Assembly (NCBI GenBank): GCA_020853795.1
Contig: JADYYF010000142.1
Coordinates: 1 to 36,997, forward strand
Reading direction: 5' to 3'
Length of the DNA stretch: 36,997 nt
Source of the DNA: Candidatus Zixiibacteriota bacterium
GTDB lineage: Bacteria; Zixibacteria; MSB-5A5; CAIYYT01
The notes under the pieces: model-generated
Told to the model about the DNA's origin: nothing
Databases searched by the model: none
Seen by the model: only the letters and a program-made list of their open reading frames with translations
Program-made: the position numbers and the translations under genes
Shown: positions 1,883 to 35,752 of the stretch, piece after piece
Numbering within the stretch: position 1 is the stretch's first letter
How the letters are laid out: each line of letters starts with the position of its first letter

Positions 1883-2703
1883 ATGCAGCTCTACGATAAG
1901 ATTGTTGAAGCGACGAATTTCATTCGCACCACGACGAAGGCCACGCCGGAGGTCGGAATTATCCTCGGCACCGGTCTGGGGCGGCTGGGCGAAAAGATCG
2001 AGCGCGAAACAGCGGTGGATTACCAGCAGATTCCGCATTTTGCGGTGTCGACAGTGGAAGGGCATGCCGGGCGGCTGATCTTTGGGAAGCTGAAGGGCAA
2101 GTCGGTGGTGGCGATGCAGGGCCGGTTCCATTTCTACGAAGGCTACAACATGGAGCAGGTGACGTTCCCGGTGCGGGTGATGAAGCAGCTCGGGATCAAG
2201 GTGCTGATCGTCTGCAATGCGGCGGGCGGGTTGAATCCGCAGTTTCGCGTCGGCGAAATGGTGCTGATCACCGACCATATCAATTTCCAGGCACAGAATC
2301 CGCTGATCGGACATAACGACGAGCGGCTGGGACCGCGGTTTCCCGATATGTACAACTGCTACGATAAGGAGTTGGTCGACCTGGCAGAACGGACGGCAAT
2401 CGATTTGGGGTATCGAGTGATGCGCGGCGTGTATGCGGCGGTTACGGGGCCGAACCTGGAGACGGCAGCGGAGTACCGGATGCTGCGGGCGATGACGGCC
2501 GACCTCGTCGGCATGTCGACGGTACCGGAGGTGCTGGTGGCGCGACATCAAGGCACGAGAGTGCTGGGGGTGTCGATTGTGACGGATATGGGACTGCCGG
2601 ACGATCTGCATCCGTGCAGCCACGAAAAGATCCTGGCGGCGGCGAACAAGACGGAGCCGCTGATGACGGAGATGATTGCGAACGTGGTCGAAAGGATGAA
2701 GCT

Positions 2704-2707
<4 letters not shown>
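1883..2707 (+). CDS. punA: Purine nucleoside phosphorylase, trimeric (PNP/MTAP) family
   Basis: At 274 aa, this enzyme splits purine (deoxy)nucleosides with phosphate into base and (deoxy)ribose 1-phosphate in the salvage pathway. Visible motifs are GIILGTGLG (phosphate loop, residues 25-33), GRFHFYEGY (His83), CNAAGGLN (111-118), TGPNLET (Glu193, the base-binding Glu201 of human PNP), VGMSTVPEV (Met211) and VTDMG (Thr234-Asp235). Asp235 occupies the position of Asn243 in human PNP. Asp there is typical of enzymes that handle 6-amino purines such as MTAP, so substrate choice may not be limited to inosine and guanosine. AGGA 7-10 nt before the ATG is the ribosome site. The stop codon overlaps the TTG start of ileS (TTGA), suggesting coupled translation. 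Its insertion between divIVA and ileS is unusual. Confidence 0.92.
2691..2707 (+). promoter_or_regulatory. Ribosome site and TTGA stop/start overlap that set the ileS start
   Basis: AAAGGA (2691-2696) lies 7 nt before TTG (2704-2706). The TTG shares two bases with the phosphorylase stop TGA (2705-2707). This decides the TTG over the more upstream in-frame ATG at 2614, which lies deep inside the phosphorylase gene and would add 30 residues of unrelated composition. Confidence 0.75.
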
Positions 2708-5856
<3,149 letters not shown>

Positions 5857-24928: not shown

Positions 24929-25417
24929 TCACTTTGCGCGCTCGTAGAGAAAATCAACTCCGGCAGGCTTCCCTTGGCGGAGACCCTCGATGCGCGCATG
25001 AAGGGAATCGGCGCTGATCCGGGCATAGATGATGCGTGTCGGGAAGTCGTGGGCCGGGTTCTCGAAGACGGTCGTAACGGAATCCTGCCGGATCATCTTG
25101 AAGTACGTCGGCGCGGGGTTATGAGCGACTTCGGCGACGTAGAAGAGCCCGCTGTCGGTGGCCAGGAGCGAAAGCTTCTCCGAAAAGACGGTGTCGGCTC
25201 CGGCGAGGGTGACGCTATTGCCGACGAAAGAGGTGGAGTCGGGGCGTTGCCAGGTTTCGAAGGTGACATCCCTGGCGCCGGTCATTCTCCAGGAGCCGAG
25301 CAGCCAAGAGAGATTGTAAAGGGCGGTCCGATTCGACTTGTCCGCAATCGGCGTTGCCGCGAAGGCGGCAGTCAAAGCTAGGGCGACAATGGCCGCGAGG
25401 GGCAGTATCTGTTTCAT
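24929..25417 (-). CDS. Small secreted protein, DUF6265-like
   Basis: The 162-aa protein has a clear signal peptide (residues 1-20, cleavage after AFA). The mature part begins LYNLSWLLGSWRM and ends with FENPAHDFPTRIIYARISADSLHARIEG, the pattern of the DUF6265 family, a lipocalin-like beta-barrel of unknown function. There are no catalytic residues I recognise. A ribosome site AGGA stands 8 nt before the ATG, and a strong promoter lies at 25458-25486. It precedes the DUF192 gene. Confidence 0.75.
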   Translation of the reverse strand: MKQILPLAAIVALALTAAFAATPIADKSNRTALYNLSWLLGSWRMTGARDVTFETWQRPDSTSFVGNSVTLAGADTVFSEKLSLLATDSGLFYVAEVAHNPAPTYFKMIRQDSVTTVFENPAHDFPTRIIYARISADSLHARIEGLRQGKPAGVDFLYERAK

Positions 25418-25457
25418 CGATCAGTCCTCATCGAGTCAGGGCAAGAATTGCTATGCG

Positions 25458-25486
25458 ATTATACGCCGGATCGGCATTTGCGGCAA
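25458..25486 (-). promoter_or_regulatory. Predicted promoter of the DUF6265-DUF192 unit
   Basis: On the minus strand, TTGCCG (25486-25481), a 17-bp spacer and a perfect TATAAT (25463-25458). Its -35 box is only 7 bp from that of the divergent promoter. An ATTTG-CGG-CAAAT inverted repeat (25476-25488) covers the -35 box. Confidence 0.65.
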
Positions 25487-25493
25487 ATTCCAA

Positions 25494-25523
25494 TTGACAA
25501 AATGCACTGGAGAGGGTTATTTT
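25494..25523 (+). promoter_or_regulatory. Predicted promoter of the TSP3/dockerin gene
   Basis: A perfect -35 TTGACA (25494-25499), an 18-bp spacer and TATTTT (25518-25523). The leader would be about 155 nt and ends in GGGAGGA before the ATG at 25686. Confidence 0.55.
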
Positions 25524-25685
25524 TGGATTAACACAACAGATCCACCAAGAGAATCAGGCACTTCGCTCGGCGTGGCAGCGCGCGGGGGCAGGGGCTTATT
25601 GTGTCACCGCCCGGCGATCAAGGCAGTCAGCAGCGGCGGAATTTGTTGCACCCTGACAACACATATTTCGTATCGGGAGGACGTT

Positions 25686-28253
25686 ATGTCTCAAGCTCGA
25701 TGTTGGCTCGTCGTCGCCATAGCAACTGCCATGGCGGCCGGCATATTCAGTGGATTTTCGCCGGGAGCGATGGCACTGCCCAATGTCATTGTCAACGCCA
25801 GCCCGCCGATGACCGAGCAGCACAACTCATCGGTAGCAGTGAGCGAGACAGTACCGGGGGTGGCGTACGCGGTCTGGACCGAGTTTCCACCGCCCGGATT
25901 CGGTACTTCCCTGATTGGTTATGCGCCGACGTTGACTGGCGGTGCGGCCTGGGCGCCGGCGGTGATCCCGGCGACGCCACCCTATCCATTTGAGTGGAAT
26001 CCTTCGGTTTCGGCACATCCAGGGGGCGCGTTCTTTGCGGTGGCGGCGGCTTACGGTGCGGCACCGCCATGGGTGTCGCCGAACCAGATATTGATTCATC
26101 CCTCTGCAGGCGGGGGCGGACCGTTTGCGGCGGGGGTTCCGGTTTCACCGGTGAATGCGCCGGGCGGTAACTGGTTTGATTATCCGAATCTGGAGGTAGA
26201 TGCGTTTCCGATGAATCCGCCAATGGCAGTCGGAACGATCCATACCGCCTGGGTCGAATACTTGAACGTGAATGGCATCGACGCCGACGGTAACGGCAAT
26301 CCGTTCGACGATCCTGGCGGTGACGGCTACACCATCTGGTATTCCTACTCGCGAACAGCGGCGGGTCCAGCACCGATATACCCGGCGTTCAGCGTGCCCG
26401 TGGCCCTGATCGGTGGGCCGGTATCGGGCAACGGGATGGCAGCGCATCGGCCGTCGGTGGCGGTGATGGGGCCTCCCGGAAACGGTGTTATTCCTCCGGG
26501 CGGCGTTTATGTAGCCTGGACTGACGGTGTGACGGCGTTTATCACGGGCGCGCCGGGTTTGGGCGCGGCATTTGGGCCAGTGGCGGTCATCAGCCCGATT
26601 GTGCCGATTCCGCCCGTGATTGCACCGGGCGTGAGCGCGACGACAAACATCTCGATTGCGGTGGCACCTGCGGCCAGTCCCTGTCCCGGGACAGTCTTTG
26701 CAGTCTGGGCGGGTATTAACGCCGCAGACATCGACATCTGGTTCTCTTCCAGTCCGAACGGTCTGCCGGGAACCTGGCTGCCGCCAGTGCGGGTCAATCA
26801 GGACCCGGTCGGCAACGGCCGGGATCAATGGGCGCCGAAGATTACGGTCGATCCGGGCGGCAGAATCATGGTGACTTATTACGACCGGCGGAATGATCCG
26901 GCGAACGTCATGAAGCAGACTTGGATTTCTGTTTCGGCGAACTGCGGCGTGACGTGGACGGACTGCCTGCTGTCGAGTGTTCCGCCGCTGGTGCCGGCTT
27001 CAACATTCCCGCTGCCGCCCGCACCGATTACGATTGGTCATTATCTTGGCAGTGATTTCAACGCGATCAATCCGTTTCTGGCCACTTGGAATGATGAGCG
27101 GGTCACAGGCATAGATCAGGACATTTGGTCAGAGACAGTGCCGACTTGCTTCCCGGACACCGACGGGGATGGAATTCCGGATATTTCCGACAACTGCCCG
27201 ACGATTCCGAACCCGGGCCAAGCCGATGGCGACGGCGACGGCGTGGGTGATGTCTGCGACAACTGCCCGACCACCCCGAACGTTGGTCAGACGGACGGCG
27301 ACGGCGACGGCGTGGGTGATGTCTGCGACAATTGTCCGACCACCCCGAACGTTGGTCAGGCGGATGGCGACGGCGACGGCGTGGGTGATGTCTGCGACAA
27401 CTGCCCGACCACCCCGAACGTTGGTCAGGCGGATGGCGACGGCGACGGCGTGGGTGATGTCTGCGACAACTGTCCGACCACCCCGAACGTCGGTCAAGCG
27501 GATGGCGACGGCGATGGAGTGGGTGATGTCTGCGACAATTGCCCGACCGTCCCGAACGTCGGTCAAGCGGACGGTGACAGCGATAGCGTGGGTGATGTCT
27601 GCGACAATTGCCCCGCCACCCCGAATCCCGGCCAAGGCGACGGCGATAGCGATGGCGTAGGCGACGTTTGCGACAACTGCCCGACGATTTCCAACACCTC
27701 GCAGACCGACGCCGACGCCGACTTGGTTGGAGATGCTTGCGACAATTGCCCGACCACCCCGAATCCGGGGCAAGCGAATGCGGATGGCGATCCGTTCGGG
27801 GATGCCTGCGACAATTGTCCGAGCGTCAGTAATCCCGGCCAGGCCGATGGCGATGGCGATGGGCGCGGGAACGCGTGCGACAACTGTCCGGCCAAGGTGA
27901 ATCCGTTCCAGGAGGACGTTGACGGCGACGCTGTCGGTGACTCGTGCGACAACTGTCTGACGGTACCGAATCCGTCGCAGGCAGACAGCGATGCTGACGG
28001 CATTGGTGATGCGTGCGACAGCAGCAGTTGTGTCTGTATTCCGGGCGATGCCGACGGGAATGGGATGCACACGATCTCAGACGCCGTGTTCTTGATCAAC
28101 TATATCTTCGCGGGTGGGCCGACGCCGTGTAACGGCGATGCCGATTGCAATTGCGCGGTGTCGATTTCGGATGCGGTGTACTTGATCAATTACATCTTTG
28201 CGGGGGGACCGGCGCCGTGCACATGTGCGGTGTATATCACGCTTTGTCCATAG
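25686..28253 (+). CDS. Secreted protein: sialidase-like propeller region, 12 thrombospondin type-3 repeats, dockerin-like C-terminus
   Basis: The 855-aa protein starts with a signal peptide (about 1-31, cleavage after AMA). Residues ~32-490 are rich in Pro, Gly and Ala and have BNR/sialidase features, including the Asp-box-like SANCGVTW and WNDERVTGIDQDIW. Residues 502-777 hold twelve 23-residue TSP3 repeats of the form DNCPTTPNVGQADGDGDGVGDVC, which bind Ca2+ through the DxDGDG loops and link through Cys pairs. Residues ~780-848 hold two F-hand-like calcium motifs (GDADGNG...AVFLINYIFAGG and GDADCNC...AVYLINYIFAGG), a dockerin type I-like duplication. No cohesin gene is visible. The open frame begins at 25338, but the ATG at 25686 has a near-perfect ribosome site (GGGAGGA). 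Likely an extracellular calcium-stabilised adhesin or enzyme; activity not established. Confidence 0.88.
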   Translation: MSQARCWLVVAIATAMAAGIFSGFSPGAMALPNVIVNASPPMTEQHNSSVAVSETVPGVAYAVWTEFPPPGFGTSLIGYAPTLTGGAAWAPAVIPATPPYPFEWNPSVSAHPGGAFFAVAAAYGAAPPWVSPNQILIHPSAGGGGPFAAGVPVSPVNAPGGNWFDYPNLEVDAFPMNPPMAVGTIHTAWVEYLNVNGIDADGNGNPFDDPGGDGYTIWYSYSRTAAGPAPIYPAFSVPVALIGGPVSGNGMAAHRPSVAVMGPPGNGVIPPGGVYVAWTDGVTAFITGAPGLGAAFGPVAVISPIVPIPPVIAPGVSATTNISIAVAPAASPCPGTVFAVWAGINAADIDIWFSSSPNGLPGTWLPPVRVNQDPVGNGRDQWAPKITVDPGGRIMVTYYDRRNDPANVMKQTWISVSANCGVTWTDCLLSSVPPLVPASTFPLPPAPITIGHYLGSDFNAINPFLATWNDERVTGIDQDIWSETVPTCFPDTDGDGIPDISDNCPTIPNPGQADGDGDGVGDVCDNCPTTPNVGQTDGDGDGVGDVCDNCPTTPNVGQADGDGDGVGDVCDNCPTTPNVGQADGDGDGVGDVCDNCPTTPNVGQADGDGDGVGDVCDNCPTVPNVGQADGDSDSVGDVCDNCPATPNPGQGDGDSDGVGDVCDNCPTISNTSQTDADADLVGDACDNCPTTPNPGQANADGDPFGDACDNCPSVSNPGQADGDGDGRGNACDNCPAKVNPFQEDVDGDAVGDSCDNCLTVPNPSQADSDADGIGDACDSSSCVCIPGDADGNGMHTISDAVFLINYIFAGGPTPCNGDADCNCAVSISDAVYLINYIFAGGPAPCTCAVYITLCP
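27189..28016 (+). repeat. Tandem array of twelve 69-bp units encoding TSP3 repeats
   Basis: Each unit is exactly 69 bp (23 codons) with no indels across all twelve. Units 2-5 are nearly identical in DNA, including the wobble bases; units 8-12 are diverged. The gradient suggests recent expansion at the 5' half. The periodicity keeps other frames open too, so overlapping frames here are shadows. Confidence 0.95.
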
Positions 28254-29569: not shown

Positions 29570-29589
29570 TACTGCACATTTGTGCAGTA
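29570..29589 (+). promoter_or_regulatory. LexA-type SOS operator in front of imuA
   Basis: TACTGCACATTTGTGCAGTA is a perfect palindrome with 9-bp arms around TT. It keeps the Escherichia coli-type layout TACTG-N10-CAGTA. It ends 3 nt before the imuA ATG, so a bound repressor would block transcription start or elongation. A possible -35 TTGATC lies at 29539-29544. No lexA gene is in the window, so the repressor is inferred. Confidence 0.8.
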
Positions 29590-29592
29590 TAT

Positions 29593-30513
29593 ATGAGACA
29601 GTTAGAGTTAGATATTCGGGATTTAGGCGGGAGGGAAAGCTCCCTCACCCCCGACCCCTCTCGCTTAGGAACTGCTGAGAAAGTAGGATCATCGTCAACG
29701 CAAGCGAAGCGTAGCAGTCTCACTCCCATGAATCAGCGCATACGAGATTGCTTCGTCGCGGCGGAGCGCGGAGGGAATGGTGAGGGAACGTTCGCTCCTC
29801 GCCATGACACGTTGAAGCAAGGCATGGGGATTGTTGAGAGTGCCGGTGCTGAAGCGGAATCGGAAAGGGAAAGCTCTCATTTGGCGGTACTACGGGAGTT
29901 GTTGCGGGGGCAGTGGCCCGAGGCGGGATATGTTGACCAGTTTGATCCACGGACATGTTTTCGCATCAACCTGGAATCACTCGGCGGGGTATTTCCGAAG
30001 TCGGGGATTCCGTATGGACAGATTTTGGAGATTACGGGCGGGGTGTCCTCGGGCAAAACCGGGTTACTGTTGCGAACGCTGGCGGCGCTGACGCCAACGC
30101 CACGGCTGGTTTATGTTGACGGGACGGGGACATTCTTCCCGCCGGCAGCGGCAGCGGCTGGAATCGACCCGCGGCAAATTTTGCTGTTGCGACCGGAACG
30201 GATCGGCGAGGCGATTCGCGGAGTCGAGCTACTGCTGGAGGCAAAGCTGGTGAACTGCGCGGTGTTTGACCTGGCGGGAGGGCGTGAGGTACTGCCGCGG
30301 ATTATGCTGCATCGGCTGCGCCGGCAGATCACGCGCGCCAAGGCCCTGGGGGTATTTTTGACCGAAGCTGGGGTGCATCTGCTCCCGGCCAGTTTTGTCT
30401 CGCTGCAACTGACGGTGCACAAGCTCGACCGCCACACACTGGAAGTTACCGCCACGCGGAGCCGGATCAACAACGAGGGGGCGAAAGGACGGCTGCACCT
30501 TGAAGCTGCCTGA
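29593..30513 (+). CDS. imuA: ImuA-like RecA-fold protein with an inserted N-terminal segment
   Basis: In the 306-aa protein, residues ~95-306 form a RecA-like domain with Walker A GGVSSGKT (149-156), Walker-B-like CAVFDLAGG, and a C-terminal LTVHKLDRHTLEVTATRSR. ImuA is a non-catalytic helper of the ImuB-DnaE2 mutasome that performs SOS-induced lesion bypass. Residues ~14-92 are foreign: they carry repeat P1 (ESSLTPDPS) and R1 (TFAPRHDTLKQGMGI). The insert is flanked by the 11-bp direct repeat AGGGAAAGCTC (29632-29642 and 29866-29876). Removing 234 nt (78 codons) joins MRQLELDIRDLGGRESS directly to HLAVLRELLRGQWPE in frame. The start ATG at 29593 lies 3 nt after the operator, without a clear ribosome site. 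The 3' end overlaps imuB by 14 nt. Confidence 0.85.
   Translation: MRQLELDIRDLGGRESSLTPDPSRLGTAEKVGSSSTQAKRSSLTPMNQRIRDCFVAAERGGNGEGTFAPRHDTLKQGMGIVESAGAEAESERESSHLAVLRELLRGQWPEAGYVDQFDPRTCFRINLESLGGVFPKSGIPYGQILEITGGVSSGKTGLLLRTLAALTPTPRLVYVDGTGTFFPPAAAAAGIDPRQILLLRPERIGEAIRGVELLLEAKLVNCAVFDLAGGREVLPRIMLHRLRRQITRAKALGVFLTEAGVHLLPASFVSLQLTVHKLDRHTLEVTATRSRINNEGAKGRLHLEAA
29632..29683 (+). repeat. Repeat family P, copy 1 (in imuA)
   Basis: It shares the head GGGAAAGCTCCCTC (29633-29646) with copy 4 in dnaE2 and the CCTCACCCCCGACCC-type core with copies 2 and 3. Read as ESSLTPDPS in the imuA frame. Its 3' half is diverged. Confidence 0.7.
29736..29832 (+). repeat. Repeat family R, copy 1 (in imuA)
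   Basis: 29761-29832 aligns without gaps to 32186-32257 in imuB, 64 of 72 positions identical by my count. The 5' extension (GAGATTGCTTCGTCGC) resembles a dispersed repeat seen in many bacterial genomes. Read as ERGGNGEGTFAPRHDTLKQ in the imuA frame. Confidence 0.8.
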
Positions 30514-32515
30514 TCGTTCTTTTCATGTCGCGCAGATGTGGCGGACGATTGTGGCGCGACGGGGAGCGGGGCAAAAAAGCCCCCTTGGCCCCTTTGCCAA
30601 GGGGGAATCGCGAACGTCGGTTGGTACAAAGCCTGAGTCGTCGAGTCCCCTCACCCCCGTCCCCTCGCCCAGAAGGAGGAGGGGGGAAAAAGATGCGGCG
30701 GGACGAGTGGTCTGTGCGCTGATTCCGCGGTTTGGATTGGCGCTTTACTGCAAGGACGATCCGCATCTTCTGCTCGACGCCGCGGTGCTGGCAGAGGATG
30801 GCACCGATACGGCGTTGGTTTTGGAAGTTAACGGCAAAGCAGCCAAGGCGGGAGTGACGGTCGGGATGACGGCGGCGCAGGCGGGAATGCTGTGCGCGGG
30901 TTTGGTGGTCAAGACAAAGAATCCGGCGCGGGAAGAAGAGGAACTTCAGGAGTTGCTGACGCGACTACAGGCGATCGCGCCACTGATCGAGGTGGAAACG
31001 CCGGGGGTGTTGCTGGTGGCGGCGGAAGGTTTTGACGCGCTTTACGGTGGCGAGCATCCGCTGGCCGAGCGGATCGTGCGGACAATCAAGGATTACGGTT
31101 TGCCGGTGCAGGCGGGGATCGGCGACAACCCGTTTGTGGCACGGCTGGCGGCGGAATTGACGCGACCGGGAACGGTGCAGGCTGTTGCGGCGGGGACGGC
31201 GCGCGTATTTTTGGCGCCGTTGCCGGTGAAGCATCTTCCGGTTAGTGTGGAAGTCCGCGAGCAGTTGCTGGCGCTGGGGATTCGGACGATCGGGCAGGCG
31301 GCGGAATTTCCGGCAAACGAATTAGTCGCGCGGTTCGGTGCGGAGGGGGCGCTGATTGCGCACCTGGCGCGCGGCAACGATCCGCGTCATTTCGTGCCGC
31401 TGGCATTGGAAGAAGATTTGACCGAGCGACTGATATTGGATGATCCGTACTGTCAGTTGCCGCTGGTCCTGGATTTGGCCGAGCGCGCGATGAAGCCGCT
31501 GTTGCAGCAATTGGGGCGGCGCGGGCTGGCGTGTGGGCGGATGGCGGTACGGTTGCAGTTTGCCGACCGCTCGCGGCAGACACTGGAGTTGGCGGTCGAC
31601 AAGCCAACATTGTCGCTGCGCAAGTTGCGGCGGCAACTGCAACATCAGTTGGAACAGGCACACGTTGACGACGGGGTGGTAGAGATCGCGGTCGCGCCGC
31701 TGGCGACCATGCCGCTGCACCCAACGCAGTTGGATTTGGCCGTCCGGGGCGATACCGGCAATGAAGAGCGTATCCTGGAACAGCAGATTCTCCGCAAGTC
31801 ACTCCTGACCGTACGAATTCACGCCGCGGTGTTGCCGGAGGATTGTTACTCGCTCAGTCGTTTTGATCCTCATGCAACTTCCCCACCGCCGGAGCTGCCG
31901 CTTCCGGAAACGTGCAGCAGCCGGCCCGCCTTCGCGCTGGCGGGGATTGTCGGACTGCGAACGTTCAACCCGGTGCGACGGATTGAGGTGATCAGCGAGA
32001 ACGAACAACCGCGGCTGATGATCGTGGGGGGACAGAGGCGGCGGATTGTGCGCTGTCACGGGCCGTGGCAGGTGTCGGGGCGCTGGTGGCATGACGAGTT
32101 TCGGCGCGACTATTTCGAGGTGGAAACCGAGCGGGGGGAGGTGTATTTGATTTATCGGGTGGTGCCGGGGGCGGTTAATTCCGCAGCGGAGAGCGGAGGA
32201 AATGGTCAAGCAACGTTCGCTCCTCGCAATGACACGTTGAAGCAAGGCGTGAGGATTACGGAGAGCGTCAGCGCGGGAAAGGGTAACAAATACAACCCCC
32301 TAGCCCCCTTTGCTAAGGGGGAATCGCGTGCGTCGTTTGGTACGGGGAACGGGATGTCGAGCCCCCTCACCCCCGACCCGTCTCCCAGGGGGGAGAGGGG
32401 AGAAACATCCCGTGCGCGTGGTATTCGAGGTCGCGAGAGTGAAGGCCAGATCAGAGATGGGGCGTGCCGGGGAGTGGCGGGCGCGGGCTGGTACTTGCAG
32501 GGGGTGTTTGATTGA
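30500..32515 (+). CDS. imuB: ImuB, catalytically degenerate Y-family polymerase, with repeat insertions at both ends
   Basis: The protein is 671 aa from TTG 30500 (AAAGGA upstream, 14-nt overlap with imuA). The conserved body begins at about residue 70 (VVCALIPRFGLALYCKDDP) and includes the Y-family-like ALYGG, GIGDNPFVARLAAEL and RFGAEGALIAHLARGND segments. The acidic triad of active polymerases is missing: CKDDP replaces DMDxF, and ETPGVLLVAAEGFDALYG replaces the SIDE motif region. That is typical for ImuB, a scaffold linking DnaE2 and the clamp. Residues ~20-69 (repeats Q1, P2) precede the body; GTG 30707 is an alternative start if they are untranslated leader. Residues 555-662 (R2, Q2, P3) split the C-terminal tail between EVYLIYRV and GWYLQGVFD, the normal terminus. 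dnaE2 follows without a gap. Confidence 0.88.
   Translation: MKLPDRSFHVAQMWRTIVARRGAGQKSPLGPFAKGESRTSVGTKPESSSPLTPVPSPRRRRGEKDAAGRVVCALIPRFGLALYCKDDPHLLLDAAVLAEDGTDTALVLEVNGKAAKAGVTVGMTAAQAGMLCAGLVVKTKNPAREEEELQELLTRLQAIAPLIEVETPGVLLVAAEGFDALYGGEHPLAERIVRTIKDYGLPVQAGIGDNPFVARLAAELTRPGTVQAVAAGTARVFLAPLPVKHLPVSVEVREQLLALGIRTIGQAAEFPANELVARFGAEGALIAHLARGNDPRHFVPLALEEDLTERLILDDPYCQLPLVLDLAERAMKPLLQQLGRRGLACGRMAVRLQFADRSRQTLELAVDKPTLSLRKLRRQLQHQLEQAHVDDGVVEIAVAPLATMPLHPTQLDLAVRGDTGNEERILEQQILRKSLLTVRIHAAVLPEDCYSLSRFDPHATSPPPELPLPETCSSRPAFALAGIVGLRTFNPVRRIEVISENEQPRLMIVGGQRRRIVRCHGPWQVSGRWWHDEFRRDYFEVETERGEVYLIYRVVPGAVNSAAESGGNGQATFAPRNDTLKQGVRITESVSAGKGNKYNPLAPFAKGESRASFGTGNGMSSPLTPDPSPRGERGETSRARGIRGRESEGQIRDGACRGVAGAGWYLQGVFD
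30580..30703 (+). repeat. Composite repeat Q1-P2 (imuA/imuB junction)
   Basis: Q1 (30580-30627) has a perfect 10-bp palindrome CCCCCTTGGC/GCCAAGGGGG (30580-30589, 30596-30605). A 13-nt spacer and P2 (from 30641) follow. It aligns without gaps to 32296-32396 in imuB over about 100 nt. Read as SPLGPFAKGESR and PLTPVPSP in the imuB frame. Confidence 0.8.
32186..32257 (+). repeat. Repeat family R, copy 2 (imuB C-terminal insertion)
   Basis: Second copy of R, read as ESGGNGQATFAPRNDTLKQ, the same frame as in imuA. It is the first part of a 324-nt (108-codon) insertion at 32162-32485. Confidence 0.8.
32296..32410 (+). repeat. Composite repeat Q2-P3 (imuB C-terminal insertion)
   Basis: Q2 (32296-32343), 42 of 48 positions identical to Q1, carries a nearly perfect palindrome. 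The 13-nt spacer is the same length as in Q1-P2. P3 (from 32357) can fold through TCTCCC/GGGAGA. Read as NPLAPFAKGESR and PLTPDPSPRGERGE in the imuB frame. Confidence 0.8.
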
Positions 32516-35500
32516 ATGAACTACATCGAACTGCACTGCCACTCGAATTTCTCGTTTTTGGACGGCGCGTCGCATCCGGAAGATCTGGTTGAAGCCGCTG
32601 CGCAATTGTGTTATCCCGCGCTGGCGCTGACCGATCACAACGGGCTGTATGGGATTGTTCGATTTAACCAGGTAGCCCAGCGCAAAGGGGTGCGGCCGAT
32701 TTTCGGCGCAGAGATCACACTCGACACCGGCCGGCATCTGGTGCTGTTGATCAAGGACGAGGGCGGTTACGCCAATTTGTCGCAATTGATCACGGCGGGA
32801 CAGCTGCCGCATGAAAAGGGCGAGGCGCGGATCGGGTGGGAGCAGTTGGACAAATATCGCGAAGGACTGATTGCGCTGTCGGGATGCGGGCGGGGGGAGA
32901 TTCCGACGCTGTTGCGGCGGGGCGAGACGACAGCAGCAGCGGCAGCGGCGAGTCGGTACGGCGAGTTGTTCGGGGGGGAGAATTTTTATCTGGAGATGCA
33001 GAATCATCATCTGCCGCAGCAGGAGACGGTGTGCGACCGGCTGTATGCGCTCGGGAAGCAGTTGGGACTTCCCTGCGTCGCGACCAATAATGTGCATTAC
33101 GCACGCGCCGACGGCCGACGGTTGCAGGATGTGCTGACCTGTATCAAACACCACACCGATCTGGATGCCGCCAACGGGAGGCTCTATCCCAACGGCGAGC
33201 GGTATCTGAAGGCACCGGCGGAGATGGCGCGGCTGTTCCAGGCGTATCCGGAAGCGGTGGCCAACACCCAGACGATTGCGGAGCGCTGCCGGTTTGTCCT
33301 GAATGCGCTGCCGACTTCCCTGCCGGAGTTTGCGATCCCCACAGGGCATACGCCGCACACCTATCTGCGCGAAATCACCTACCGCGGCGCGCGCGAACGC
33401 TGGGGTACGATTTTGCCGGCACAGCGACGACAACTGGAGCACGAGTTGCACCTGATCAACAAGCTCGATTTATCGGGGTATTTTTTGATCGTGTGGGATA
33501 TCGCGCGGTTTTGCCACGAACAGGCGATTCTGGCGCAGGGGCGCGGGTCGGCGGCGAATTCGGCGGTGTGCTATTGCCTGGGGATAACGGCGGTGGATCC
33601 GATCAAGCTGAAATTGCTGTTCGAGCGGTTCTTGTCGGAGGAGCGGCGCGAACCGCCGGATATCGACATCGATATCGCCAACAACCGGCGTGAAGAGGTG
33701 ATTCAGTATGTCTACAACAAATACGGGCGCGCGCATGCGGCGATGGTCTGCGAGGTGATCTGCTATCGCGGGCGGTCGGCGGTACGCGATGTCGGGAAGG
33801 CGCTGGGATTTTCGCTGGAGGAAGTGGACCGGCTGGCCAAGCTGCTGCACCACTATTCGAGCGGCGATGATGTCACGGCGATTATCGAAGAAGCCAAACT
33901 GAACAGCGGCAGCGCGCGGGTGGGGTTACTGCTGGAACTGGCGCAGCAGATTCAGGATTTTCCACGCCATCTCGGTATCCACTCGGGGGGGATGATCGTC
34001 ACCGGTAAGCCGTTGTCGCAGGTGGTGCCGATCGAAAATGCCACGATGCCGGAGCGGAGCGTGATCCAGTGGGATAAGGATGATGCGGGTGAGGTCGGGC
34101 TGGTTAAGATCGATCTGTTGGGACTGGGGATGCTGTCGTTGATCGATATTGCGTTCAAGCTGATTGCGCGCCAGCGCGGGCTGAAGCTCGATCCGGCGAA
34201 ACTGGCGTATGACGATCCGCGGGTGTACGAGTTGCTCAGCAAGGCCGAGACGGTCGGGGTGTTTCAGGTCGAGTCGCGCGCGCAGATGAACACGCTGCCG
34301 CGCCTGCAACCGCGTTGTTTTTATGATCTGGTGGTCGAAGTGGCGCTGATTCGGCCGGGGCCGATTCAGGGGGAGATGGTGCATCCGTATCTGCGACGGC
34401 GAGCGGGCGAGGAGGAGGTGACCTATCCGCATCCGTCGCTCAAGCCGATTTTAGAGCGGACGCTCGGAGTGCCGCTGTTTCAGGAGCAAGGGATGCAGGT
34501 GGCGATTGCGGCGGCGGGATTCAGTCCGAGCCAGGCGGATGAATTGCGACGTGCCATGGGGCACAAACGATCGCGCGAGCGCATGGAGGCGATCGCGCTG
34601 GATCTAATCGAGGGGATGACGCGGCACGGGATCGAGCAGGAGGTGGCGATGCGAATCTACAAGCAGTTGACGGCGTTCGCCGACTACGGCTTCCCCGAAT
34701 CGCACGCGGCATCGTTTGCCCTGCTGGTGTATGTGTCGGCGTACCTGAAGGTCTACTTCGCGCCGGAGTTTTACTGCGCGCTGCTGAACGCGCAGCCGAT
34801 GGGGTTTTATTCGCCGGCGAGCATTGTTTACGAGGGGCAGCGACGCGAGGTGACGTTTTTGCCGGTGGATGTCAATCGGAGTTCGTGGGATTGCACGATC
34901 GAGGCGGATGTTCGTGCCGCGACGACTTCAACTGCGGAGAAACTCGAATTGCGGGAAAGCTCCCTCGCGCCCGATTCGGTTCGCTCACGGATGAGGGAGA
35001 AAGACGCCGCGGGCGGTGAATCCGAAGGTACACAGAACGAGCAGCCGGCAGTGCGGTTGGGATACCGGTACGTCAAGGGATTGGGGGCGGATGCGCAGGA
35101 GATAATCGAGCGCGAACTGGCACGCGGGCCGTTTGCGTCGCTGGAAGATTTTGTGTACCGCACGCAATTGAATCGCGGCGCGCTGCAGCAGTTGGCGATG
35201 GTCGGAGCGTTTGACAGTTTCGGAATTACGCGGCGGCAGGCGGCGTGGCAGATTATGGCACTTACCGGGAGATCGAGCCAGGAACTACGTTTGCCGACGC
35301 CGGAACGGGGCGCGCTGCTTCTGCCGGTAATGCTTCCCGCCGAGGAATTGATCGCGGATTTCAAGGGGATGGATTTGTCGACGGCGCCGCATTTGATGCG
35401 CTTTGTGCGGCCGCAACTGGCGGCGCGGGGATTCAAGAACTCGGCGGATTTGGCGCAAACGCCCGACCGGCAACGAGTGCAGGTAGCGGGAATAATCGTG

Positions 35501-35752
35501 ATCCGGCAACGGCCCGGAACAGCGAAGGGGTTTTTGTTTATCACGCTGGAAGACGAGGCCGGGTTTATCAACGTCGTGGTCAAACCACAGCAGGTGGCGC
35601 AATTCGGGCGGATCGTGACCGACGGCAAGGCGCTGGTAGTAACCGGGACGGTGGAAAAGCAGGACGGGGTGATCAACGTGATCGGGAGAGATTTCCGGCC
35701 GCTGGAATTTGCCTTCCAAGATTTGGCGATCAAGTCGCGCGATTTTCGATAA
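32516..35752 (+). CDS. dnaE2: DnaE2, error-prone DNA polymerase III alpha subunit, with in-frame repeat insertion
   Basis: The 1078-aa protein starts with a PHP domain (MNYIELHCHSNFSFLDGASHPEDL). The palm motifs are RGSAANSAVCYCLGIT, PDIDIDI (two catalytic Asp) and KIDLLGLGML (third Asp); FPESHAASFALLVYVSAYLK is the family signature. A C-terminal OB domain (VQVAGIIVIRQRPGTAKGFLFITLEDE) follows, as in DnaE2 rather than replicative DnaE1. All catalytic residues are present, so this is the active polymerase of the mutasome. Residues ~799-844 are an insertion carrying repeat P4 (ESSLAPDSV...REKDAAG) between DCTIEAD and AVRLGYRYVKGLG, which are adjacent in the family. ATG begins immediately after the imuB stop. 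It converges on the last gene with 2 nt between stops. Confidence 0.93.
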   Translation: MNYIELHCHSNFSFLDGASHPEDLVEAAAQLCYPALALTDHNGLYGIVRFNQVAQRKGVRPIFGAEITLDTGRHLVLLIKDEGGYANLSQLITAGQLPHEKGEARIGWEQLDKYREGLIALSGCGRGEIPTLLRRGETTAAAAAASRYGELFGGENFYLEMQNHHLPQQETVCDRLYALGKQLGLPCVATNNVHYARADGRRLQDVLTCIKHHTDLDAANGRLYPNGERYLKAPAEMARLFQAYPEAVANTQTIAERCRFVLNALPTSLPEFAIPTGHTPHTYLREITYRGARERWGTILPAQRRQLEHELHLINKLDLSGYFLIVWDIARFCHEQAILAQGRGSAANSAVCYCLGITAVDPIKLKLLFERFLSEERREPPDIDIDIANNRREEVIQYVYNKYGRAHAAMVCEVICYRGRSAVRDVGKALGFSLEEVDRLAKLLHHYSSGDDVTAIIEEAKLNSGSARVGLLLELAQQIQDFPRHLGIHSGGMIVTGKPLSQVVPIENATMPERSVIQWDKDDAGEVGLVKIDLLGLGMLSLIDIAFKLIARQRGLKLDPAKLAYDDPRVYELLSKAETVGVFQVESRAQMNTLPRLQPRCFYDLVVEVALIRPGPIQGEMVHPYLRRRAGEEEVTYPHPSLKPILERTLGVPLFQEQGMQVAIAAAGFSPSQADELRRAMGHKRSRERMEAIALDLIEGMTRHGIEQEVAMRIYKQLTAFADYGFPESHAASFALLVYVSAYLKVYFAPEFYCALLNAQPMGFYSPASIVYEGQRREVTFLPVDVNRSSWDCTIEADVRAATTSTAEKLELRESSLAPDSVRSRMREKDAAGGESEGTQNEQPAVRLGYRYVKGLGADAQEIIERELARGPFASLEDFVYRTQLNRGALQQLAMVGAFDSFGITRRQAAWQIMALTGRSSQELRLPTPERGALLLPVMLPAEELIADFKGMDLSTAPHLMRFVRPQLAARGFKNSADLAQTPDRQRVQVAGIIVIRQRPGTAKGFLFITLEDEAGFINVVVKPQQVAQFGRIVTDGKALVVTGTVEKQDGVINVIGRDFRPLEFAFQDLAIKSRDFR
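34952..35014 (+). repeat. Repeat family P, copy 4 (in dnaE2)
   Basis: Head GGGAAAGCTCCCTC (34953-34966) is identical to copy 1. The tail (GAGAAAGACGCCGCGGG) matches the end of copy 2. Read as ESSLAPDSV...MREKDAAGG in the dnaE2 frame, the same frame as the other copies. Confidence 0.75.

Follow-up and report, generated by a model that had tools for sequence, protein, structure and literature searches.

REP-like palindromic repeats in and around the imuA-imuB-dnaE2 operon of a Zixibacteria genome, with one block in frame inside ImuB

Short palindromic repeats lie in and around the genes of an imuA-imuB-dnaE2 mutasome operon, and the question is how many of them belong to the proteins and why they are found in this operon. 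The initial annotation of this DNA read eight copies of three families, P, Q and R, as in-frame insertions in all three genes. We analysed the whole stretch of 36,997 nucleotides, called the window below, which is contig 142 of a 3.56-Mb Zixibacteria genome with a completeness of 99.9%. Judging by DnaE2, Zixibacteria (candidate division GN15) are the nearest named relatives. The forward-strand open reading frames at 29593-30513, 30500-32515 and 32516-35752 are imuA, imuB and dnaE2, as had been annotated: they carry the RecA, IMS and DNA_pol3_alpha domains, respectively, and stand in the canonical order, which matches the operons of the relatives. DnaE2 also has PHP, finger, HHH_6 and OB domains and is 57–67% identical to Zixibacteria orthologues. 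Its identity is 65–67% to other Zixibacteria families and 57% to the same-genus genome G001, so that a horizontal transfer of the operon is possible. Upstream of imuA there is a perfect LexA-box-like palindrome, TACTGCACATTTGTGCAGTA (29570-29589; 9+2+9), the sole exact match in 780 kb of the own genome, with one 1-mismatch copy elsewhere. It is a putative SOS operator of imuA. Also in the window, a large protein (25338-28253) contains tandem thrombospondin-type-3-like repeats (DGDGVGDVCDNCPTTPN) and a dockerin-like tail.

Seven of the eight copies were recovered with nhmmer, all on the forward strand. P1 (29642-29662, E 0.015) is the 5′ half of a P element and matches model positions 1-21 only, the first 21 nt, and R1 (29746-29810, E 3.5e-15) is a full R element. 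Then come Q1 (30577-30608, E 1.1e-5) and P2 (30648-30686, E 1.1e-5), between imuA and imuB. Inside ImuB lie R2 (32182-32235, E 1.3e-10), which lacks the 5′ arm and covers model positions 12-65, Q2 (32292-32324, E 9e-8) and P3 (32364-32403, E 7e-9). The eighth is a weak P-like copy (34953-35003, forward strand) inside a DnaE2 insert, with 71% identity to P1 over 51 nt; the P model gives no match there. The P, Q and R models detected none elsewhere in the window, in agreement with the annotation.

Whether a copy is translated depends on where the genes start. We used a gene finder based on a hexamer model trained on the own genome; repeats receive low scores in it, and alone it is not decisive. 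Composition-based gene finding was rejected as the sole test of coding location, since it misses the imuA of a relative (G055) entirely, and orthologue alignment was used as well. The starts predicted by the gene finder are 29902 for imuA and the GTG at 30707 for imuB, downstream of P1/R1 and of Q1/P2, respectively. The orthologue-like start of imuA is the ATG at 29824, and the N-terminal stretch of the window's ImuA has no conserved counterpart among orthologues. The ATG at 29593 is located four bases past the LexA-box-like palindrome; if the palindrome is the operator, this ATG is so close to it that it is an unlikely start codon. Thus, imuA probably starts at ATG 29824, and the first 77 codons of its open reading frame are probably a leader. 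Although the open frame of imuB reaches upstream to 30413, orthologous ImuB proteins start at the position matching residue 70 of the window's long ORF (30500-32515), and together with the IMS domain this points to 30707-32515 as the probable gene. On these grounds, P1 and R1 probably lie in the imuA leader, and Q1 and P2 probably in an intergenic imuA-imuB spacer. Translation is therefore improbable for about half of the eight annotated copies.

The remaining block, R2-Q2-P3, is surely inside a protein, judging by alignment and modelling, and it is the only such block among the operon copies. It forms an in-frame insert of about 100 aa (32174-32479, forward strand) in the last hairpin of the ImuB C-terminal barrel, between YLIYR and GWYLQGVFD, where orthologues have a few residues. 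The final strand, GWYLQGVFD, is conserved and still in frame. From the WW motif to the last conserved W there are 29–37 residues in 53 of 55 ImuB proteins (median 29), 133 in the window and 74 in the relative G069. In the AlphaFold2 model, most of the ImuB core has a pLDDT above 90; at residues 490-591 it falls to about 33, and the last barrel strand (595-601) is restored. The insert is therefore predicted to be disordered. Like a Rickettsia palindromic element, the block lies in frame inside a (predicted) protein and is absent from orthologues.

In DnaE2, an in-frame insert of about 46 aa (34910-35047, forward strand) occupies the linker ahead of the helix-hairpin-helix domain; close orthologues have 4 aa there, and residues 799-844 have no counterpart in them. 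This segment is also predicted to be disordered (pLDDT below 50 at residues 799-841). The linker is 50 aa in the window, 4 in close relatives and 11 at the median. Its length varies naturally, 92 of 95 proteins having at most 34 residues. The only good match of the P-like segment is to 22 nt of P1, with a genome-wide E of 0.14; in a local test, 0 of 1000 shuffles reached this match. The DnaE2 insert is real, and its assignment to P is tentative. It turned out that the claim of in-frame insertions in all three genes holds firmly for ImuB, holds for DnaE2 as an insert whose repeat identity is weak, and probably fails for ImuA, where the repeats lie in the leader.

A search of the whole genome showed that P, Q and R are not private to the operon, and the claim of restriction to it fails at this scale. 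Pattern searches gave about 70 P, 29 R and about 10 distinct Q core matches; the backwards-read controls were zero for R and Q and high for P with two mismatches (47 matches), so that the P count rests on exact matches. On 780 kb of contigs, nhmmer detected 85 P, 39 R, 37 S and 19 Q copies, 175 of these 180 (97%) being intergenic. S (GTCATTCCCGCGGAGGCGGGAATCC) is a fourth family that trails P, with a gap of 4–9 nt in 24 of 27 P-S pairs. P, Q, R and S are thus dispersed palindromes of the whole Zixibacteria genome that lie mostly between genes. On folding, P, Q and S gave hairpins of -10.7, -7.4 and -8.9 kcal/mol (z -1.9, -2.8 and -3.5, respectively), and R gave no strong hairpin (z +0.4). The elements recur on the same strand in the order P-S (27 times), P-R (14), R-Q (6) and Q-P (5), at loci L105-L144 and L181-L192 of the own genome and at 29642-32403 of the window. 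Matches of the P family were also found in cyanobacteria and proteobacteria plasmids, the best hits being mostly 87–95% identical. The best match to the Q-P block outside the window is located about 1.4–1.6 kb from recN, a repair gene (L105:817-1168 and 2547-4229).

De novo repeat detection yielded 225 segments, of which 221 were intergenic. Of the four within genes, imuB holds three and the last is a Q elsewhere, which bears out the reported concentration of in-gene copies in the operon. This in-gene census covers the whole-genome pattern searches and the 780 kb of contigs, which were selected for the hits in them. Outside the operon, it revealed a single convincing in-gene copy, an in-frame Q in a gene for a GT22-like membrane protein (L114:503-2071).

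Apparently, the operon copies partly descend from one another, because R1 and R2 have a common 3′ flank, and Q1-P2 and Q2-P3 a common 39-nt spacer, that are absent from every other genomic copy. The copies of each family do share a reading frame, as the annotation pointed out. As local duplicates, however, they provide no independent evidence by this, and a P element can be read through in any of the three frames, Q being fully open in one. The shared frame is therefore weak evidence of function.

The elements have a strong polarity. In 75 of 77 cases, neighbouring elements share a strand. Over 53 contigs, the orientation of the elements follows the GC skew (Spearman 0.84 with the third-codon skew and 0.85 with the repeat-masked intergenic skew) and not the gene strand (Spearman -0.04). 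Among co-directional genes there is no orientation bias (46 vs 44), and transcription-linked elements were rejected as an explanation. The link between orientation and GC skew suggests that the elements may spread via single strands at replication forks. Y1 transposases act on lagging-strand ssDNA (PMC6006769). The genome has two genes for Y1/RAYT-like transposases (L108:5102-5629 on contig C14, and L398, C192:16707-16970). Each of them is beside a different REP family, CCGACTGAAGTCGG or GTCAGGATCCCTGCGATCCTGAC, and P, Q, R and S are not beside either of the two. Since neither RAYT gene is flanked by them, we call P, Q, R and S REP-like and not REPs; the two RAYTs are unsupported as their source, other REP families being adjacent. 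One of the RAYT genes adjoins tandem TCCGACTGAAGTCGGATCTACAGG units and the other inverted pairs of GTCAGGATCCCTGCGATCCTGAC, which are two further REP families.

We compared the operon with those of 23 Zixibacteria genomes that have an ImuB. The mutasome loci of the relatives yielded no P, Q or R. Genomic repeats of different families are internal to imuA or imuB in four Zixibacteria genomes (G000, G055, G069 and G088). In the imuA of G055, the inserts at the N-terminus and inside the gene have tens of matching copies elsewhere in that genome; this gene (L175:7176-8366) holds several different genomic repeats and is too atypical for the hexamer gene finder. In G088, imuA (L334:572-1435) has an in-frame insert of 30 aa, whose repeat family has 46 further matches. 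The ImuB of G069 (L322:4503-6197) has an in-frame insert of 39 aa made of two low-copy repeats, in a hairpin neighbouring the one occupied in the window. There are also a 40-aa tandem repeat in the ImuB of G074 and a tandem N-terminal repeat in the imuA of G041, both known from these loci alone. In several Zixibacteria assemblies, mutasome contigs are just 3–5 kb long (L318, L319, L302, L324, L176, L178), as if repeats in the operon had broken the assembly. In a Planctomycetota locus (L255:5926-11462), a palindromic element of 30 nt (LQRAGASxPPA) recurs in frame in both ImuB and the DnaE2 linker, as do AT-rich repeats.

We consider it probable that REP-like elements with a replication-polar spread reached the operon, were copied locally and are tolerated in the loops of a complex that is non-essential and seldom expressed. 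This reading builds on computed results: the genome-wide families, their intergenic bias and polarity, the local relatedness of the copies, the in-frame insert with its final strand and the predicted disorder. REP/BIME-like palindromes would be laid down as a same-strand mosaic (P-S, R-Q-P), with a spread tied to replication polarity, probably by transposition or copying via single-stranded DNA at the fork; we infer both the transposition route and its agent. One or a few elements would then have reached the imu operon, and local copying would have produced P1-R1 before imuA, Q1-P2 before imuB and R2-Q2-P3 within imuB. The in-gene block may have survived because it sits in a surface hairpin, keeps the frame, has no stop and belongs to a non-essential and rarely expressed complex, weak selection being the presumed cause. 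For the mutasome, the disordered loop of about 100 residues added to ImuB would then be nearly neutral. In relatives, imuA and imuB carry different genomic repeats at different loops, as would follow from tolerance, and the evidence fits the relaxed selection on linkers that had been suggested in the annotation. If tolerance alone were at work, copies would be expected in other non-essential genes too, and just one was found, the Q of the GT22-like gene. That the RAYT genes adjoin other REP families and that R folds poorly also speak against this explanation.

It is unlikely that mutasome or repair genes are true insertion hot spots, with REP movement coupled to DNA damage, fork stalling or SOS-freed ssDNA. 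The different families inside imuA or imuB of four Zixibacteria genomes are in favour of this, as is the Planctomycete element common to ImuB and the DnaE2 linker. In-gene repeats were found in 5 of 59 mutasome genes and in 0 of 117 RecN genes (p 0.004), in a comparison that was picked after the data were seen and counts the weak DnaE2 case among the five. However, RecN, which is usually SOS-induced too, carries none (no excess over about 23 aa across 117 genomes, judged from hit lengths), and it is more conserved than ImuB, so that the comparison cannot separate targeting from tolerance. Most of the operon copies look like local duplicates, and no target-site motif was found. The previously proposed mobile unit targeting the operon is unsupported, as is site-specific targeting. 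A survey of 2013 reported many in-gene REPs in DNA synthesis/replication and repair genes, dnaE2 included, sometimes as the only decorated ORFs in a species (PMC3733652). This favours a hot spot, and the clustering of repeats in such genes is thereby not entirely without precedent. A wider idea seems to us improbable: REP-like elements, in Zixibacteria and other groups, would recurrently enter error-prone mutasome genes via ssDNA from the SOS response or fork stalling, linking stress-induced mutagenesis to repeat spread, with the loops diversifying assembly.

It is still less probable that the added peptides have a function, with mutasome assembly tuned by the loop of ImuB or the linker of DnaE2. 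The ImuB insert is located in ImuB-C, published as a modelled beta-barrel that touches ImuA and DnaE2; the insert of DnaE2 is adjacent to the helix-hairpin-helix region, which contacts ImuB in the published models (PMC12926913). Nevertheless, both inserts are predicted to be disordered, and they are not conserved between species, each relative having a different insert or none. Least probable of all is a decaying operon with repeats marking a pseudogene, or a misassembled contig: frames are broken or cut in some relatives (dnaE2 of G069 and G072; imuB of G073, with masked bases), but the three frames of the window run uninterrupted over their full length, no domain is missing from dnaE2, ImuB keeps its last strand and a QLDLA stretch resembling a clamp-binding motif, and about 100 codons without a stop are unlikely by chance.

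The present case extends in-gene REP-like repeats to ImuB and the imuA-imuB-dnaE2 operon as a whole, and we found no earlier description for this phylum. The alignments with orthologues, which the annotation had proposed as a check, revealed insertion-free versions of ImuB and DnaE2. Across relatives, unrelated families appear to have been inserted independently at loops of the same proteins, which amounts to a natural experiment on the tolerance of the ImuB C-terminal barrel. It is now possible to test the report of REPs in repair genes (PMC3733652) against matched controls.

The operon resembles known ImuA-ImuB-DnaE2 mutasomes in gene order, domains and orthologues, and differs from them in the long last hairpin region of ImuB and the long DnaE2 linker. 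Rickettsia palindromic elements decorate many genes per genome, whereas here nearly all copies are intergenic and hardly any in-gene copy lies outside one operon. The likeness to them is that of in-frame palindromes in protein genes, as cited in the 2013 survey (PMC3733652). The REP/BIME and RAYT (TnpA-REP) system is similar in its short palindromes, many copies, mainly intergenic location, mosaic clusters and the presence of RAYT genes; the families of the window differ in that they are not beside RAYT genes, have same-strand neighbours and not inverted pairs, and include R, a weak palindrome. The intragenic GTAG/CGTC REPs (BMC Genomics 2013, PMC3733652) are also in-frame repeats in replication and repair genes including dnaE2; in the window there is a three-element block in the ImuB C-terminal barrel, and P, Q, R and S are termed REP-like only. 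The main text of that survey makes no mention of ImuB or the mutasome. Thus, in-gene REPs in repair genes were already known, and what is new beyond the 2013 survey is the gene (imuB), the phylum and the multi-family block.
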